A stretch of DNA of 64,000 bases from Cardiobacteriaceae bacterium (GTDB lineage Bacteria > Pseudomonadota > Gammaproteobacteria > Cardiobacteriales > Cardiobacteriaceae). The DNA lies in contig JAUNEA010000002.1 of NCBI GenBank assembly GCA_030525785.1, positions 1-64,000 of the forward strand, given 5' to 3'. The notes below the pieces were generated by a model that worked only from the letters and a program-made list of their open reading frames with translations, had not been told where the DNA came from and made no database searches. A program made the translations under genes and the position numbers. Positions 7,728 to 15,397 of this stretch are shown piece by piece (the first letter of the stretch is position 1; every line of letters starts with the position of its first letter).

Positions 7728-7885
7728 ACGCTCTCCTTTCTCAGATGGCTCTATTGCACGATTGCACAGGGCAAAGCGCTTTTGGCAAATGGATAGAAAG
7801 CGCTTTGTTTGGGCATCAGATTGTACGAGTCAAAGCGCTTTGGGGCAATGATATGACTCAAGTGTTGACCGAATGTGGTACAAAA

Positions 7886-7906
7886 AAACCGCTCAATTGA
7901 GCGGTG
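7886..7906 (-). terminator. Intrinsic terminator after ydcH-like gene
   Basis: The perfect palindrome ACCGCTCAATTGAGCGGT (7888-7905) is followed on the minus strand by a run of seven T residues. It lies 21 bp past the YdcH-family stop. Confidence 0.9.
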
Positions 7907-7926
7907 GTTTTGGAGAAAGCAAGGCT

Positions 7927-8160
7927 TTAGCCTTTTCTTTCTTTTTCAACGTTTAAGATGTACTGATAAATCTCATCTTTTAAGGCTAATTTTTGCACTT
8001 TCTTCTGCTCGATTTCGCTGTGGGCAGAAACCGCCGTAACAGGATTTTGCTCTAAGTTATTGATTTCTTCGTCCAATGCATTGTGTGCATCAAACAAGCG
8101 AGCAAAATGGCGGTCTTGTTGGCGTAATTCAGCAATCAGTTCGCGATGTTCATGTAACAT
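7927..8160 (-). CDS. YdcH/DUF465 family small protein
   Basis: A 77-residue mostly helical protein. Its N-terminus MLHEHRELIAELRQQDRHF and the following LFDAHNALDEEI match the DUF465/YdcH family, small cytoplasmic proteins of unknown function found throughout proteobacteria. Heptad-like spacing suggests a helical hairpin or short coiled coil. GGAG-like AAGGAG precedes the ATG. A strong terminator follows, so the gene is its own transcription unit. Confidence 0.85.
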   Translation of the reverse strand: MLHEHRELIAELRQQDRHFARLFDAHNALDEEINNLEQNPVTAVSAHSEIEQKKVQKLALKDEIYQYILNVEKERKG

Positions 8161-8285
8161 GATTTTCTCCTTAGTTGTTGGTTTATGGCGTTACGCCGAA
8201 AATAGAAGATAATTTTCTTCCTTACCGAAAATTATAACCCTCTTAAGGATTGGCTTCAAACCTTTACAGGCTTTTCTTTGCCTAA

Positions 8286-8316
8286 GAAAAAAGCGCTTTG
8301 AAGCCAAAGCGCTTTG
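8286..8316 (-). terminator. Terminator built from two dispersed palindromes
   Basis: On the minus strand two palindrome copies (8305-8316 then 8290-8300) fold into an 11-bp stem with loop GCTT, followed by a T run. It sits just after the DUF4198 gene stop, in the correct orientation. Confidence 0.8.
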
Positions 8317-8334
8317 TAAGGAATCCAGAGCGGA

Positions 8335-9138
8335 TTAATGCTGATGACCGATTTGGAAGGTTAAGGTGGTGTAAGTTGATTCCTTCATGCACTCAGCTTG
8401 GTCTTGGTAAGGAGCTGTGTAATCTACCATCGCTTTCCACAAGCCTTGACGCAAAGGAATAATGTTCACTTCGCCATTTTTGTCGGTTTTATCAGCAAAG
8501 GCTTGAGGCTCGATTTTGTGGTCATGCGTATCGGTGTTTTCTGTGCCAAAACCTTTGAATGTCGCGTACACATATTCGCCCACCAATGGCTCACCACGAT
8601 ACAAAACTTTTACCTTAAATGGCTGACCTACCAACACATTTTCAGGGTTATCCAGAGGCACAATCTCTACCAAATGCCCCAAAGGTTTGTTGATGGCATT
8701 CACATCAGCCGCTTCATGTCCAACGTTTACGATTTGCTTGGCGTACATTCTGCTTTGTTCACAATGCTCAGCGCCTTCGTAAGTTTTTAAAGTAGCATCT
8801 TTTTTCCAACCGTCTTTACCTTTTGACCAGAAAGTTGGCGCATATTCAGCGCTCAGCAAATAAGAGCCGTTGGCTAAGCCTTCTTTGCTTTCAAATTGAT
8901 AGTTTTTTTCACCTTTTTGAACCAAATCCTGTGAGCCTTCTTTGCCAATCAATTGCACGCCTTTTTTGAAAATAGGCAAACGAGCTTCGGGAATTTCTTC
9001 AAAAACAGGGAAGTGACCATAACCTAATTCAGCTTTTAAAACTTCTCCGCCGTGAATGTGGTTGGATTCTAACCATAAACGATGAGCAAAAGCTTGGCTG
9101 CTGGCAAGGGTTAAGAGAGCAAGTAGGGTTTTTTTCAT
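8335..9138 (-). CDS. DUF4198 periplasmic protein (nickel/cobalt-uptake-associated type)
   Basis: A 267-residue exported protein with signal peptide MKKTLLALLTLASSQAFA and mature start HRLWLES, the usual beginning of DUF4198 proteins. The C-terminal half (DKNGEVNI...GLWKAMVDY) is an immunoglobulin-like domain, and the protein ends HQH. Some DUF4198 proteins (NikK-like) accompany nickel or cobalt transporters; metal binding here is inferred from that and from the upstream ABC operon. The start at 9138 is chosen at the signal peptide; the open frame runs 44 codons further upstream without support. It is the last gene of the 13.8-8.3 kb operon, 106 bp after the pseudoazurin gene, and ends at a palindrome-pair terminator. 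Confidence 0.8.
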   Translation of the reverse strand: MKKTLLALLTLASSQAFAHRLWLESNHIHGGEVLKAELGYGHFPVFEEIPEARLPIFKKGVQLIGKEGSQDLVQKGEKNYQFESKEGLANGSYLLSAEYAPTFWSKGKDGWKKDATLKTYEGAEHCEQSRMYAKQIVNVGHEAADVNAINKPLGHLVEIVPLDNPENVLVGQPFKVKVLYRGEPLVGEYVYATFKGFGTENTDTHDHKIEPQAFADKTDKNGEVNIIPLRQGLWKAMVDYTAPYQDQAECMKESTYTTLTFQIGHQH

Positions 9139-9244
9139 GACAAATACTCCATCAATAGGTAAGTAAGGGTGCGTGATTGTATAACATGAATAACCTGTGG
9201 TAAAGAATCTACTCGCTCTCAAAGCGCTTTGTTGAGATAAAGCT

Positions 9245-9682
9245 TTATTCTTCCTTAATTTGTTCAGCAAGCTTTTCTAAACGACCTTTATTGCTCATGG
9301 CGCGTTTTTCCAAGCGTGGCACTTTTTCCAAAACATCAGCCAGATTCACGGCTTTACCAACCTGAATCATGCCAACCATATTCATCATGCTGTGTGGTGG
9401 GCAAACATAAATGTAAACACCTTCTTGGGTTAGCGTGATAGAGAATTTTTCATCTAAAGCGCTTTGGAATTTCTCCGCACCTTCAGGCATCACTTTCGAT
9501 TCTACGTTATGCCCTTTGTTGGTTGGGATAAAAGTGACGGTATCGCCCACGTTCACATGCAGAAAAGCAGGCTCAAAAACCATCGGTTCTTTATCAGAGC
9601 CTATATCGAGCATCTTGACTTCATACTCTGCCGCCCAAAGCGCTTGGCTTATCATAAAATTTAACAGTAAAAATTTTTTCAT
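9245..9682 (-). CDS. Pseudoazurin-type blue copper protein
   Basis: A 145-residue periplasmic cupredoxin. Signal peptide MKKFLLLNFMISQALWA is followed by EYEVKMLDIG. Copper ligands are visible: His in NKGHNVES and the Cys-x-x-His-x4-Met set in VCPPHSMMNM, with the spacing of pseudoazurin. A charged helical C-terminal tail (about 110-145) is also pseudoazurin-like. Such proteins carry electrons to periplasmic nitrite or nitrous oxide reductases. The start at 9682 has GGAG 7 nt upstream. It lies 42 bp after the ABC ATPase gene in the same direction, an unusual position for an electron carrier and a hint that the importer handles copper or another redox metal. Confidence 0.85.
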   Translation of the reverse strand: MKKFLLLNFMISQALWAAEYEVKMLDIGSDKEPMVFEPAFLHVNVGDTVTFIPTNKGHNVESKVMPEGAEKFQSALDEKFSITLTQEGVYIYVCPPHSMMNMVGMIQVGKAVNLADVLEKVPRLEKRAMSNKGRLEKLAEQIKEE

Positions 9683-9724
9683 CGAACACTCCAAAAAACA
9701 AAAAACTAGCACAGCAAAGCGCTT

Positions 9725-10492
9725 TTACGAGCGCCGCCGTGCAGGAATAATAATCGGCAAACCTTGTTCATCTTGATGGCGATAAATGGGTACATGGTAA
9801 AGCTTCTCGACCAAATCGCGCGTCAAAACCTCAGAAGCATGCCCTTTACCATGAATTTTCGCACCTGATAACAATACCACTTCATCAGCAAATTGCGAGG
9901 CAAGATTTAAATCGTGCAAAATCATGAGGGTAGTGAGATTTCGTTCGTGGGTTTGTTGATGCACGCGCTCTAAAAGCACGCATTGATGATGCATATCCAA
10001 AGCGCTTATAGGCTCATCTAACAGCAGTAATTCAGGATTTTTCAGCAAGACTTGTGCAAACATTACCATCTGCCGTTGTCCGCCCGAAAGCGATAACACA
10101 TCTTGCCCTGCTAAATGCTCAATGCCTAATTCGTGCATTAAAGTAATCGCAGCGTGTAGTTGCTCATCGGAAACATGGGTACTTAAGTTATCCAGCTGCC
10201 CCAAAAGCACCACTTCCAAAGCGCTTAAGGAAGCATCGACCATGCTATCCTGTGGCATATAGCCAATGCGCTTACGCCATGTGTAGATAAGCTCTGGTGT
10301 AATACTTTGATTTTGAAAAGAGAGTTTGCCTTTAAAGGGCAATTCCGTAAAAATCCCTTTGATTAATGATGACTTACCTGCGCCATTGGGGCCTAAAATG
10401 GCATAAACCTTCCCTGTTTCAAAGCAGATATTGAGTTTATCAGCCACACATAAACGCCCACGATAGAGCGTAAAATCTTCTAACACCAACAT
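9725..10492 (-). CDS. Iron-siderophore/metal ABC transporter ATP-binding protein
   Basis: A 255-residue ABC ATPase of the FecE/BtuD type that powers the FecCD-type permease encoded just upstream. Walker A is GPNGAGKSS (about 36-44), the Q-loop is YMPQDS, the signature is LSGGQRQM, Walker B is LLLLDEPISALD and the H-loop is ILHDLN. The ATG at 10490-10492 overlaps the permease stop as TGATG, so translation is coupled; the open frame extends upstream but inside the permease gene. The substrate cannot be read from the ATPase; see the paired binding proteins. Confidence 0.92.
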   Translation of the reverse strand: MLVLEDFTLYRGRLCVADKLNICFETGKVYAILGPNGAGKSSLIKGIFTELPFKGKLSFQNQSITPELIYTWRKRIGYMPQDSMVDASLSALEVVLLGQLDNLSTHVSDEQLHAAITLMHELGIEHLAGQDVLSLSGGQRQMVMFAQVLLKNPELLLLDEPISALDMHHQCVLLERVHQQTHERNLTTLMILHDLNLASQFADEVVLLSGAKIHGKGHASEVLTRDLVEKLYHVPIYRHQDEQGLPIIIPARRRS

Positions 10493-11562
10493 CAATGCCC
10501 CCGCTTTGACAAAATAATCCAAAAGAAAAATGGCACGCCAATGATAGAAGTGATGATGCCAATGGGAAAAATAGCACCGGGTTTTAGGGTTTCTGATAAC
10601 ACTGAAGCGCAGGATAAAAATGCTGCACCACATAAGGCTGAGGCTGGTAGGAAATAGCGTTGATCTTCGCCAACCAAAGTGCGAGCCACATGGGGAGAGA
10701 CCAAGCCAATAAAGCCAATGGTGCCAATAAAGCTGATAACCGTTGCCGTCATTATTGCCACAATGACCAGCACTTTTAGCCGTAGCCGTGTCAAATTGAT
10801 GCCTAAGCTAATCGCGCGACTTTCCCCTAAGCGTAATGCCGTCAATTGCCAAGCGCTTTGATACAGTAGCCAGAGGCAAATGGCAGTAATGCATGTTGTA
10901 ATGGCAAGGGTAGTGTGGGTGGCTTTGCTAAGGCTGCCAAAGAGCCAGAAGAGGATTTTTTGGCTGTCTTCAGGGGTGGAAAGATATTGAATCAGCGATG
11001 AGCCTGATTGAAATAAGAACAGAAGCGAAATGCCCACCAAAACAAGTGTTGCCGAGCTAAAACGGCGCATGGCAGCAAAAGCAAACATCACGCCTGAAGC
11101 CAGCATGGTCATCACAAATGCCATAATTGGTTGTGCGATATAAGCAGGTAAGCCAAAGCCACCAAAAACAATCACTAACGCCGCCCCAAAGCCAGCTGCT
11201 GCTGCCATGCCGAGTGTATAGGGAGAAGCCATAGGATTATTGAGTAAAGTTTGAATCTCTGCTCCACCAGCGCCCAAAGCTGCACCAGCGACCAATGCCA
11301 TTAAAGCGGCTGGTAGGCGTAAGTCATTGACAATAGTGCTGGTAAAGGTATCGACTCCTTCAAGATGCAAAAGCGCTTTGAGAACATCAAGTGAGCTAAT
11401 CAAGCCACCAGCAGGTCCATTGGTTAAATCCAAAACCAAGCTGATGAAACACATCGCCATAAAGCCAATTAATAGCACAAAGCGCTTTTTTTCGCGTTGG
11501 CGATGAGAAAGTAGTGTTTGGTTTTTGAGATTATCTTGCGTTGAATAATTGGTATCACTCAT
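10492..11562 (-). CDS. FecCD-family metal ABC transporter permease
   Basis: A 356-residue inner-membrane permease with about ten hydrophobic segments. Family landmarks are DLRLPAALMALVAGAALGAGGAE (about 80-102), NNPMASPYTLGMAAAAGFGA and GFIGLVSPHVARTLVGEDQRYFLP (about 285-308). FecCD permeases import ferric siderophores, haem, cobalamin or other chelated metals as homodimers with one ATPase type. It is the single permease gene here, 54 bp after the second binding-protein gene with a hairpin in the gap, and TGATG-coupled to the ATPase. Confidence 0.92.
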   Translation of the reverse strand: MSDTNYSTQDNLKNQTLLSHRQREKKRFVLLIGFMAMCFISLVLDLTNGPAGGLISSLDVLKALLHLEGVDTFTSTIVNDLRLPAALMALVAGAALGAGGAEIQTLLNNPMASPYTLGMAAAAGFGAALVIVFGGFGLPAYIAQPIMAFVMTMLASGVMFAFAAMRRFSSATLVLVGISLLFLFQSGSSLIQYLSTPEDSQKILFWLFGSLSKATHTTLAITTCITAICLWLLYQSAWQLTALRLGESRAISLGINLTRLRLKVLVIVAIMTATVISFIGTIGFIGLVSPHVARTLVGEDQRYFLPASALCGAAFLSCASVLSETLKPGAIFPIGIITSIIGVPFFFWIILSKRGH

Positions 11563-11575
11563 TATTTTTCCTTCG

Positions 11576-11602
11576 CAAAAGAAAGGGCGACCAAAGCCGC
11601 CC
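11576..11602 (-). terminator. Leaky terminator between binding-protein and permease genes
   Basis: On the minus strand GGGCG(GCTTTGGT)CGCCC (11585-11602) is followed by TTTCTTTT. It lies between the second binding protein (stop at 11617) and the permease (start at 11562). A partial terminator here would give more binding protein than membrane components, as is common in ABC importer operons. Confidence 0.7.
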
Positions 11603-11616
11603 GTGTTTGTGATGCT

Positions 11617-12711
11617 TTATTTTGCCTGAATGAAGAAAGTGCCTTCAGGAGTGATGGGTAAGTATTTTTTGTGGTAATCAAGATAGGTTTGGAGGGGGTC
11701 AATATCTTGGAAGGCTTCAGGATAAAGCGCTTTGGCAATGTATTGAATGGAGGCTGCATCGGCGAGTGTGCGTGAAGCACCTTGATAAATACCATGCAAA
11801 CGCCCTGCTTTGATAGCAGGCAATTCCGCCCAACCTGTGCGATTTTTATAAGCTGCTAAGCGCTTTTGAGCCTCATCTTCCGTAATGTTGATGCCCATGA
11901 CCATGCCTTCAGGGTTTTTCTTCAATTCTGTTTCACGACCTGTGATGAAAACAACCTCAGGTTGTGCCGCAATCACCGCTTCAGGATTCATAGGCCCTGC
12001 ATATTCCACCACGCCTTCCGCAATGTTGGCTGCACGCGCTTGAACCGCTAAAGGCCCCCACATGGTGTTGCCAAAGCTATTGCCACTCTCTTTCGGGCCT
12101 TTATTACCAAATTCGATATAGGCTTTGACTTTTGGAATATTCAAGGCATCAATGCGTTGGTGAACATCTTTAATCACGCCTTCATACCAAGTAGCGAGTT
12201 CTTTCGCGCGTTCTTCTTGACCTGTAATAACGCCCAAAAGTTCGGTGCTTTTCAAATGTAAATCCAGTTGTTCTTTGTTGTAATCCAGCACAACCACAGG
12301 AATACCCAACTTATGAACAGCATCTAAATCCATTTCTAATGCTTGCCATTGCCAATCTGCCAGCACGATTAAATCTGGTTTGAGCGATAACACTTTCTCC
12401 ACTGAAAAGGTTCCTACTTCAACCTCGCCTACATCTTCCAGCTCGTTTAATTTCGGAAGCGCTTTGGAGTAAACTTCCCAGCTGGAAGGAGTCCAATCTG
12501 TCCAAACAGCTTTGGAAAATCCCACGACATTATCCAGTGCCTTTTCTCCACCAACAGCCAAGTAATCCGTGTAATAAAAGCCCAGCATGATGCGTTTAGC
12601 AGGCACATCAACTTTTACTTCACGACCCACCACATCGGTGATGGTTTTGACTTCAGCTACCGCATGAACCGATAAAGCTAAAGCAGCAAGTGCAAATAAT
12701 TTTTTCAACAT
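11617..12711 (-). CDS. Periplasmic metal/siderophore-binding protein (paralogue 2)
   Basis: A 364-residue TroA/FepB-fold solute-binding protein with signal peptide MLKKLFALAALALSVHAVA. The mature part has TDVVGREVKVDVPAKRI, the usual first strand of ferric-chelate binding proteins, a long central helix and a C-terminal IAKALYPEAFQDIDPL. It is a tandem paralogue of the next upstream gene, with the same length, the shared EFGNKGP motif and the shared end YHKKYLPITPEGTFF. The mature N-terminus has no lipobox Cys. The ligand may be a chelated iron, haem, nickel, molybdate or copper species; the sequence does not decide. Confidence 0.88.
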   Translation of the reverse strand: MLKKLFALAALALSVHAVAEVKTITDVVGREVKVDVPAKRIMLGFYYTDYLAVGGEKALDNVVGFSKAVWTDWTPSSWEVYSKALPKLNELEDVGEVEVGTFSVEKVLSLKPDLIVLADWQWQALEMDLDAVHKLGIPVVVLDYNKEQLDLHLKSTELLGVITGQEERAKELATWYEGVIKDVHQRIDALNIPKVKAYIEFGNKGPKESGNSFGNTMWGPLAVQARAANIAEGVVEYAGPMNPEAVIAAQPEVVFITGRETELKKNPEGMVMGINITEDEAQKRLAAYKNRTGWAELPAIKAGRLHGIYQGASRTLADAASIQYIAKALYPEAFQDIDPLQTYLDYHKKYLPITPEGTFFIQAK

Positions 12712-12734
12712 AAACCAATCCTAAGGGTTAACGA

Positions 12735-13826
12735 TTAAGGTGTTAAGAAGAATGTGCCATTTGGTGTAATTGGCAAGTATTTTTCATGGAATGAGAGGTA
12801 GGTTTTGAGGGGGTCTAAATCTTGGAAGAGATCAGGATAAAGCGCTTTGGCGATAAATTGTGCGGCGGCCAAGTCTGAAATAGAACGTGAGGCAGTGTGA
12901 TACAAACCAAACACGCGATTATTTTTCACCGCCTCGATATTCTCCCAGCCTTGACGTGCTTTAAAGCCATTTAAGCGCTTTTGTGCCTCTTCAGCAGAAA
13001 CATCAATGCCCATTGCCATGATTTCAGGTAATTCTTGGATATTGTTTTCAGTACCTGTAATGATGACAACATCAGGATTGCTGGTGAGGAATTGTTCAGC
13101 GCTGATTTGCCCCCAGTTTTCAACAAAAGGCGCACTGATATTATCGCCACCAACCGTTGTTGCTACGGCTCCCCACATATTTTTGCCAAAAGTGAAGCTG
13201 TATTCGCTTGGGCCTTTGTTGCCAAACTCCACATAAATCTTAGGCTTGGCCTTGCCAGCTTCGGTTACGCGTTTTTGCAATTCTAAAATCCCTGCTTCAT
13301 ATTCTTCGGCAATTTGTTTGGCTCGCTCTTCCTGACCACTCAAAATACCAAAGAGTTCTACACTTTTCTTATGATTATCAATGGTTTGGTCGTTAAAATC
13401 TACTACCACCACAGGAATGCCAAGTTTCTCAAAATGTGGCAAATCGGCTTCTAAATTCGCCATTTGTACTTTAGGAACGATTAACACATCAGGCTTTAAA
13501 GAAAGCGCTTTTTCGGTGGAGAAAGTGCTGTTGGTTGGGTAGCCAACATCGGTGATTTCTTGAAGTTTTGGCATTTTTTCGCTGTATAACTGCCAGCTAC
13601 CAGGATTGAATTTTTCCCAAAATTCACGAGAAATACCAACCACATGGCTAAATCCTTCAATGCCAGCAACGGCAATATAATCAGGATAGTAAAACGTGAT
13701 AATGGGGCGTTTGACAGGTACATCAACGCTGACCTCGCGATCCATCACATCGCGAAAGGTTCGCACTTCAGCAGAAGCCCAAGCGCTAAAAATCAAAGCG
13801 CTTGATAATAAAAGAGGTTTTAGCAT
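12735..13826 (-). CDS. Periplasmic metal/siderophore-binding protein (paralogue 1)
   Basis: A 363-residue exported solute-binding protein, first gene of the operon. Signal peptide MLKPLLLSSALIFSAWASA precedes RTFRDVMDREVSVDVPVKRP. It shares architecture and several blocks with its downstream paralogue (STEKALSLKPDVL, EFGNKGP, YLPITPNGTFF) but differs widely elsewhere, so the two may bind different chelates and feed one permease. The 24-bp gap to the next gene indicates co-transcription. Upstream, a 5-1-5 inverted repeat at 13893-13903 could be an operator. Confidence 0.88.
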   Translation of the reverse strand: MLKPLLLSSALIFSAWASAEVRTFRDVMDREVSVDVPVKRPIITFYYPDYIAVAGIEGFSHVVGISREFWEKFNPGSWQLYSEKMPKLQEITDVGYPTNSTFSTEKALSLKPDVLIVPKVQMANLEADLPHFEKLGIPVVVVDFNDQTIDNHKKSVELFGILSGQEERAKQIAEEYEAGILELQKRVTEAGKAKPKIYVEFGNKGPSEYSFTFGKNMWGAVATTVGGDNISAPFVENWGQISAEQFLTSNPDVVIITGTENNIQELPEIMAMGIDVSAEEAQKRLNGFKARQGWENIEAVKNNRVFGLYHTASRSISDLAAAQFIAKALYPDLFQDLDPLKTYLSFHEKYLPITPNGTFFLTP

Positions 13827-13892
13827 AAAAATCCTTTACCATAGAGAATTGTCAGAAACATAAGGTGATGGACATCAAATAATGAAATAGGA

Positions 13893-13903
13893 ATGAGTCT
13901 CAT
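13893..13903. promoter_or_regulatory. Possible metal-regulator operator
   Basis: ATGAG-T-CTCAT is a perfect 5-1-5 inverted repeat about 70 bp upstream of the metal-uptake operon start. It partly resembles the 7-1-7 Fur-box layout. It could equally be a chance repeat; no other copy was looked for systematically. Confidence 0.25.
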
Positions 13904-13989
13904 CAGGTTGCGCATTGTAAAGATTTTTACGGAAAAAGGAGGGGATTGTGGTACGGATTGCAGGAATGTAACCAAAGCGCTTTGGGGGC

Positions 13990-14018
13990 AAAAAAGAAGG
14001 TGAGCCAAAGCCCACCTT
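13990..14018 (-). terminator. Intrinsic terminator after argG
   Basis: AAGGTG and CACCTT with inner pairs (13997-14018) form a stem. On the minus strand it is followed by CTTTTTTG. It begins 21 bp after the argG stop. Confidence 0.85.
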
Positions 14019-14038
14019 GTTGTGTTTGAAAATGCAGA

Positions 14039-15397
<1,359 letters not shown>

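Follow-up and report, generated by a model that had tools for sequence, protein, structure and literature searches.

Why should a gene for a pseudoazurin, a blue copper protein and electron carrier, stand in an operon for a FecCD-type ATP-binding cassette (ABC) importer? The question is raised by positions 8335–13826 of a 64,000-nucleotide stretch of contig JAUNEA010000002.1 from a Cardiobacteriaceae bacterium (GCA_030525785.1), and we refer to this whole stretch as the window. The answer that we favor, with a probability of roughly 0.5, is that the operon imports iron by way of periplasmic binding proteins and supplies the importer with a copper redox partner of its own. This reading draws on the gene set, its conservation, a distinct importer-type group of pseudoazurins, and the intact copper ligands of these proteins, all of which were observed. 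The operon is real and conserved, though it has received little study, and every part of it is ordinary as a member of its family; the novelty is in the combination, its spread, and the specialized copper loop.

Gene organization

All genes of the operon are on the minus strand. The first gene, SBP1 (12735–13826; PF01497), encodes a periplasmic substrate-binding protein (SBP) and is followed by its paralog SBP2 (11617–12711; PF01497; 49% identity to SBP1), which accompanies the pseudoazurin in other genomes. Next come a single gene for a FecCD-family permease (10492–11562; PF01032, E 4.1e-76), which is probably a homodimer, and an ABC ATPase gene (9725–10492; PF00005), the start of which overlaps the permease stop (TGATG). 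The pseudoazurin gene (9245–9682; TIGR02375) encodes a signal peptide and the copper loop CPPHSMMNM, and its neighbor is a gene for a DUF4198 protein. The gaps in this order are 23, 54, −1 (TGATG), 42, and 106 bp. The permease, ATPase, and binding proteins are encoded together and each exceeded the Pfam cut-off, identifying a FecCD-type (type II) ABC importer. Families and open reading frames thus bore out the original prediction of two paralogous SBPs, one permease, one ATPase with TGATG coupling, and a true pseudoazurin, running in the same direction with short gaps.

Distribution of the importer–pseudoazurin pairing

Homologous loci were collected by searching one genome per species with an SBP alignment, the pseudoazurin not being used in the query, and genes in G+C-rich loci were called by codon usage. 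A pseudoazurin gene was present in 38 of the 79 loci recovered by SBP homology alone, usually directly 3′ of the ATPase gene. These loci span gamma-, beta-, and alphaproteobacteria and Campylobacterota (Cardiobacterium, Rappaport, Campylobacter, Helicobacter, Pelistega, Actinobacillus, Neisseria, Haemophilus, Aggregatibacter, Agrobacterium, Brucella, Aureimonas, Aeromonas, Vogesella, Rhodoferax, and Curvibacter), and plasmid records showed the cassette in Vibrio coralliilyticus and Aureimonas sp. AU20 as well. Because the order SBP2–permease–ATPase–pseudoazurin was repeated in distant genomes, the pairing is far beyond chance. What had been regarded as unusual, an electron carrier within a FecCD importer operon, is not a one-off but a conserved cassette, of which the DUF4198 gene is probably not part. 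Among 11 Cardiobacteriaceae relatives and the source genome, pseudoazurin and permease ortholog were both present in seven and both absent in five, which corresponds to 1 in 792 if the 12 genomes, which are related, are counted as independent.

Two arrangements differ from the cassette. Marinomonas loci (L056, 8998–11069; L068, 8962–11033) carry an SBP gene and a pseudoazurin gene, then a glutaredoxin-like gene, with no permease or ATPase gene beside them. Lautropia has a second pseudoazurin, its loop being CLPH, at a locus (L167) where the adjoining FecCD permease and ATPase are of a different, more distant kind.

An importer-type group of pseudoazurins

The window pseudoazurin scored 120 bits against TIGR02375 (cut-off 109.85) and keeps the type-1 copper ligands H58, C94, H97, and M102, which were invariant across 24 sequences. 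The copper loop of the importer copies is CPPHxMMxM or a close variant (general form CP[PV]HxxMxM), such as CPVHRxMNM in Haemophilus and Aggregatibacter and CPPHLSMAM in Vibrio. Importer copies have no Lys preceding the Cys ligand, and most have an extra conserved Met at C+5. The loop of non-importer copies, which are encoded near nirK, nos, nor, or other unrelated genes, is KC[TLAK]PHxx[ML]GM. In a tree of 49 pseudoazurins, all 35 importer copies fell on one side of one branch (support 80/84).

These data bear on whether the pseudoazurin is a denitrification carrier that serves nitrite or nitrous oxide reductase and stands beside the importer by chance. Pseudoazurin genes are often located close to nirK, nos, and nor, and NirK was found in most Cardiobacteriaceae relatives. 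However, the source genome (93.67% complete), in which a single Copper-bind protein was found, gave no match to NirK or NosZ, two relatives (G003 and G009) have NirK and no pseudoazurin, and the importer copies are grouped apart from the denitrification copies in the tree. We rejected this very improbable explanation on genome content and the tree; a gene annotated as pseudoazurin need not mean denitrification.

A further explanation accepts iron as the cargo and gives the pseudoazurin a separate role. Plastocyanin and cytochrome c6 are known to replace each other, and by the same iron-sparing logic the pseudoazurin would simply be co-regulated with the importer and take the place of a heme cytochrome c under iron scarcity, for example in electron transfer to cytochrome c peroxidase (CCP) or an oxidase. 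A CCP/MauG di-heme peroxidase gene lies directly upstream in the five H. parainfluenzae-type loci and both Aggregatibacter loci, and several lineages keep the importer without a pseudoazurin. Nevertheless, the importer-specific copper loop without Lys before Cys points to another partner, most other copies of the operon have no CCP gene beside them, and the pseudoazurin gene follows the ATPase gene in nearly every copy. We therefore consider this explanation rather unlikely.

Putative cargo

Support for the cargo is indirect and comes from Fur-like boxes in relatives, the proteome of iron-starved A. pleuropneumoniae, and the iron-bearing folds of YiuA; because of these three, the cargo is likely iron. 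Fur-like sites were found in 22 of 72 upstream regions of homologous SBP genes (p ≤ 0.05 against shuffles; best match, 16 of 19), with matches of 15–16 of 19 in H. parainfluenzae, Pelistega, Helicobacter apodemus, Vibrio coralliilyticus, Curvibacter, and Tolumonas. The loci are partly non-independent, five of them being H. parainfluenzae-like, and several genera contribute. The sites stand 5′ of SBP2 operons and also of some lone SBP1 genes.

In A. pleuropneumoniae, the proteins encoded by APPSER1_09785–09810 increased by 1.5–3 log2 under iron starvation with deferoxamine, the last by 0.9 (PMC12507848). They are annotated, in order, as SBP, permease, ATPase, pseudoazurin, SBP, and “glutathione synthetase,” and were listed merely as putative iron transport (PMC12507848). 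By annotation, this is the same gene set as that of the window, and three Actinobacillus loci (L034, L055, and L057) show the same order; it differs in that the second SBP gene lies 3′ of the pseudoazurin gene and is followed by an ATP-grasp-type gene.

The AlphaFold2 model of SBP2 (pLDDT 93.8) had Veillonella 4mo9 and Yersinia YiuA (27–29% identity) as its nearest solved folds, and the YiuA structures among them carry iron, Fe-NTA, or Fe-DHB-Arg-Ser (ferric catechol). Neighboring genes elsewhere agree on balance with iron: in H. parainfluenzae, genes for an FtrD-like protein and FtsX permeases are clustered beside the operon, and a ferritin-like gene lies 3′ of the pseudoazurin gene in Agrobacterium. 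In Rappaport israeli (97% complete), which has the importer, the TonB plug domain gave no match, so that the cargo there should not need a TonB receptor. A TonB receptor adjoins the importer at only one of the loci examined (L082), and the two receptors of the source genome are both encoded away from the operon, where a link to the importer is possible. The finding in R. israeli provides indirect support for a cargo small enough to do without a TonB receptor.

The original prediction had proposed copper, or nickel/cobalt, as the cargo; the same three lines of evidence favor iron, and we placed both below it after weighing. A copper importer would take up copper or a copper chelate, with the pseudoazurin as a periplasmic copper carrier or store, in keeping with a blue copper protein within the operon, the additional Met at C+5 of the loop, and the PCuAC gene of Rhizobium sp. 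CSW-27, which adjoins an importer homologous to that of the window. On the other side stand the Fur-like boxes in several genera, the higher A. pleuropneumoniae protein levels under iron chelation, the iron-bound nearest folds, and the invariant SBP residues, which include no Cys/His/Met cluster, just a single H152 and M217. Copper import is thus improbable.

Substrate-binding proteins

Residues Y46, D49, W70, E200, M217, W218, E260, Y309, and R314 were almost invariant in the SBP alignment and, judging from the mapped loops, may contribute to the binding site. Nearly all of them are common to SBP1 and SBP2, and only five positions (58, 73, 144, 231, and 315) separate the two groups cleanly, mostly by conservative changes. 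The suggestion that two SBPs widen the ligand range is possible and found no support, the putative site loops being nearly identical. In Pelistega, H. parainfluenzae, Aggregatibacter, and N. sicca, SBP1 orthologs (58–64% identical) occur singly, on a different contig from the importer; hence, two SBPs per importer are a recurring design. In Campylobacter and Helicobacter, one SBP was found. Rappaport, C. valvarum, and A. ureae have a broken SBP1, which therefore looks more dispensable than SBP2. The broken homologs (L101, 7318–8358; L039, 7355–7657; L065, 9001–10089) carry a frameshift, deletion, or stop, and the pseudoazurin is intact.

Proposed mechanism and its significance

In the mechanism that we propose for the favored reading, small iron species would cross the outer membrane, probably via porins, and the pseudoazurin would exchange one electron with iron in the periplasm, most likely oxidizing Fe(II) to Fe(III). 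The electron would pass from the pseudoazurin to the respiratory chain, and the Fe(III) chelate would be captured by SBP1 and SBP2 and handed to the FecCD permease and ATPase. We infer the direction of electron transfer, as we do any contact between pseudoazurin and SBP.

Other genomes suggest a third partner. In 19 loci and on the Vibrio plasmid, the importer has beside it a gene for an ATP-grasp protein with a weak relationship to glutathione synthetase (PF02955), and pseudoazurin is present at every one of them. Within Cardiobacteriaceae, the ATP-grasp protein was found in each of the six importer-bearing relatives, mostly unlinked to the importer (L101, 12430–13284; unlinked in G002, G006, G008, G010, and G011), and one relative without the importer gave a weak match; a search of the source genome gave none. 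The position of the ATP-grasp gene is occupied by an MFS gene in species that are mostly environmental. As a more tentative extension, these loci may belong to a widespread and as yet unnamed type of ABC iron importer that depends on copper. A specialized pseudoazurin would act directly on the cargo or SBP, and the third partner, an ATP-grasp enzyme (mostly host-associated species) or MFS protein (mostly environmental species), would perhaps make or export a small iron ligand.

Several observations weigh against an iron importer of this kind. The window itself has no convincing Fur box (best match, 12 of 19; p 0.27), and the mRNA of APPSER1_09785–09810 fell while the proteins rose (PMC12507848). 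Several genomes that encode homologous importers (Psychrobacter, Enterobacter, Nicoletella, Hydrogenophaga, and Azospirillum) gave no pseudoazurin match; thus, the pseudoazurin is not essential to transport. The support for the importer group in the pseudoazurin tree is only moderate, and the gene 3′ of the ATPase gene in Rhizobium sp. CSW-27 encodes the copper chaperone PCuAC. The site proposed for YiuA comprises R64, R165, and R223 together with H331 and Y334 (PMC5683015). In SBP1 and SBP2, the basic triad R64/R165/R223 is not conserved, aligning to a gap region, N145, and G202, while H331 corresponds to Q/H310 and Y334 to S313; with the triad not conserved, the ligand may differ.

If the pseudoazurin acts on the cargo, iron uptake by an ABC importer would depend on copper. 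Such dependence is known for FTR1-type permeases, and none was found for FecCD importers in the literature searched. Among the bacteria that carry the operon are commensals and pathogens of humans and animals (Haemophilus, Aggregatibacter, Actinobacillus, Neisseria, Cardiobacterium, Helicobacter, and Campylobacter), and it is therefore relevant to iron acquisition by these organisms.

The DUF4198 gene and other features of the window

The DUF4198 gene (8335–9138, minus strand; PF10670, E 8e-39) had been counted in the same operon. It is indeed on the same strand and next in line; however, its membership is doubtful because of the larger gap of 106 bp, a promoter-like site within it (9204–9176; consensus match only), and the lack of linkage in relatives, and the gene probably lies outside the importer unit. 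A tblastn search found DUF4198 in none of the 79 importer loci. It is located away from the importer in Cardiobacterium, near feoAB-like genes (gene names read from the sequence) in an order-level relative, and 3′ of a TonB receptor gene on plasmids of E. coli and Aliarcobacter. We rejected core membership of DUF4198, there being no linkage in the 79 loci or in Cardiobacteriaceae relatives, and for the same reason it is unusable as the hint of nickel or cobalt that had been drawn from it. Nickel or cobalt import would fit the resemblance of DUF4198 to the nickel accessory protein NikK (weak sequence match to 9gcb, E 0.88), but with DUF4198 unlinked to the importer elsewhere and other DUF4198 genes adjoining TonB receptor or feoAB-like genes, we find it hardly credible.

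The nearest solved protein was PDB 9mhi/9mhk. The former matches a DUF4198 gene of N. gonorrhoeae, with no importer gene seen adjoining, and the variant 9mhk replaces three His residues that are retained in the window protein, the mature form of which would begin with His, as judged by its signal peptide. The window protein is probably a metal-related periplasmic protein of a separate unit. Both entries were deposited as phosphoribosylglycinamide formyltransferase, a name that does not fit the DUF4198 family, and a literature search on the codes 9mhi–9mhl found no paper.

A hairpin scan located terminator-like hairpins on the minus strand between argG and SBP1 (13997–14018), which marks the 5′ limit of the operon, and 3′ of the DUF4198 gene (8290–8315); 12 terminator-like sites were observed against 7.0 ± 2.9 in shuffled sequence. 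Between SBP2 and the permease gene, a G+C-rich hairpin with a T-rich tail (11585–11602, minus strand) is a possible, weak candidate for an attenuator. An Rfam scan of 7800–14300 found no RNA element.

The palindrome AAAGCGCTTT occurs in 131 copies in the 64 kb (0.32 expected; e.g., at 8290, 8306, 9221, 9456, 9716, and 11370), within genes and between them, and is often extended as CAAAGCGCTTTG. It resembles HIP1-like repeats and is almost absent from the loci of relatives, although those from one other genus of the Cardiobacteriaceae often contain the variant core AAGCGCTT. A CRISPR array at 235–2307, with 34 matches to the 28-bp repeat TTTCTAAGCCACCTATGCGGTGTGTAAC at a spacing of ~60 bp, looks like type I-F.

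Comparison with known systems

The window pseudoazurin shares family and copper ligands with denitrification pseudoazurins, exceeding the TIGR02375 cut-off, and differs from them in copper loop, gene neighbors, and its separate tree group. With the nickel ECF importer NikKMLQO, the locus has only DUF4198 in common, the window importer being FecCD-type and not ECF. YiuABC of Yersinia, which is Fur-regulated (PMC5683015), shares the binding-protein fold and sequence family (YiuA; 6b2x, 9hrj, 9hrp, 9ht5, and 9if3) and the FecCD-type importer; unlike in the window operon, no pseudoazurin has been described with it. FtrABCD and P19-FTR1 likewise couple iron import to a cupredoxin-like copper protein in the periplasm, and FtrB oxidizes Fe(II) in vitro (PMC11966278). 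These systems differ from the window operon in that their permease is of the FTR1 type rather than an ABC importer and that the copper site of FtrB is D118/H121 rather than the type-1 H-C-H-M.

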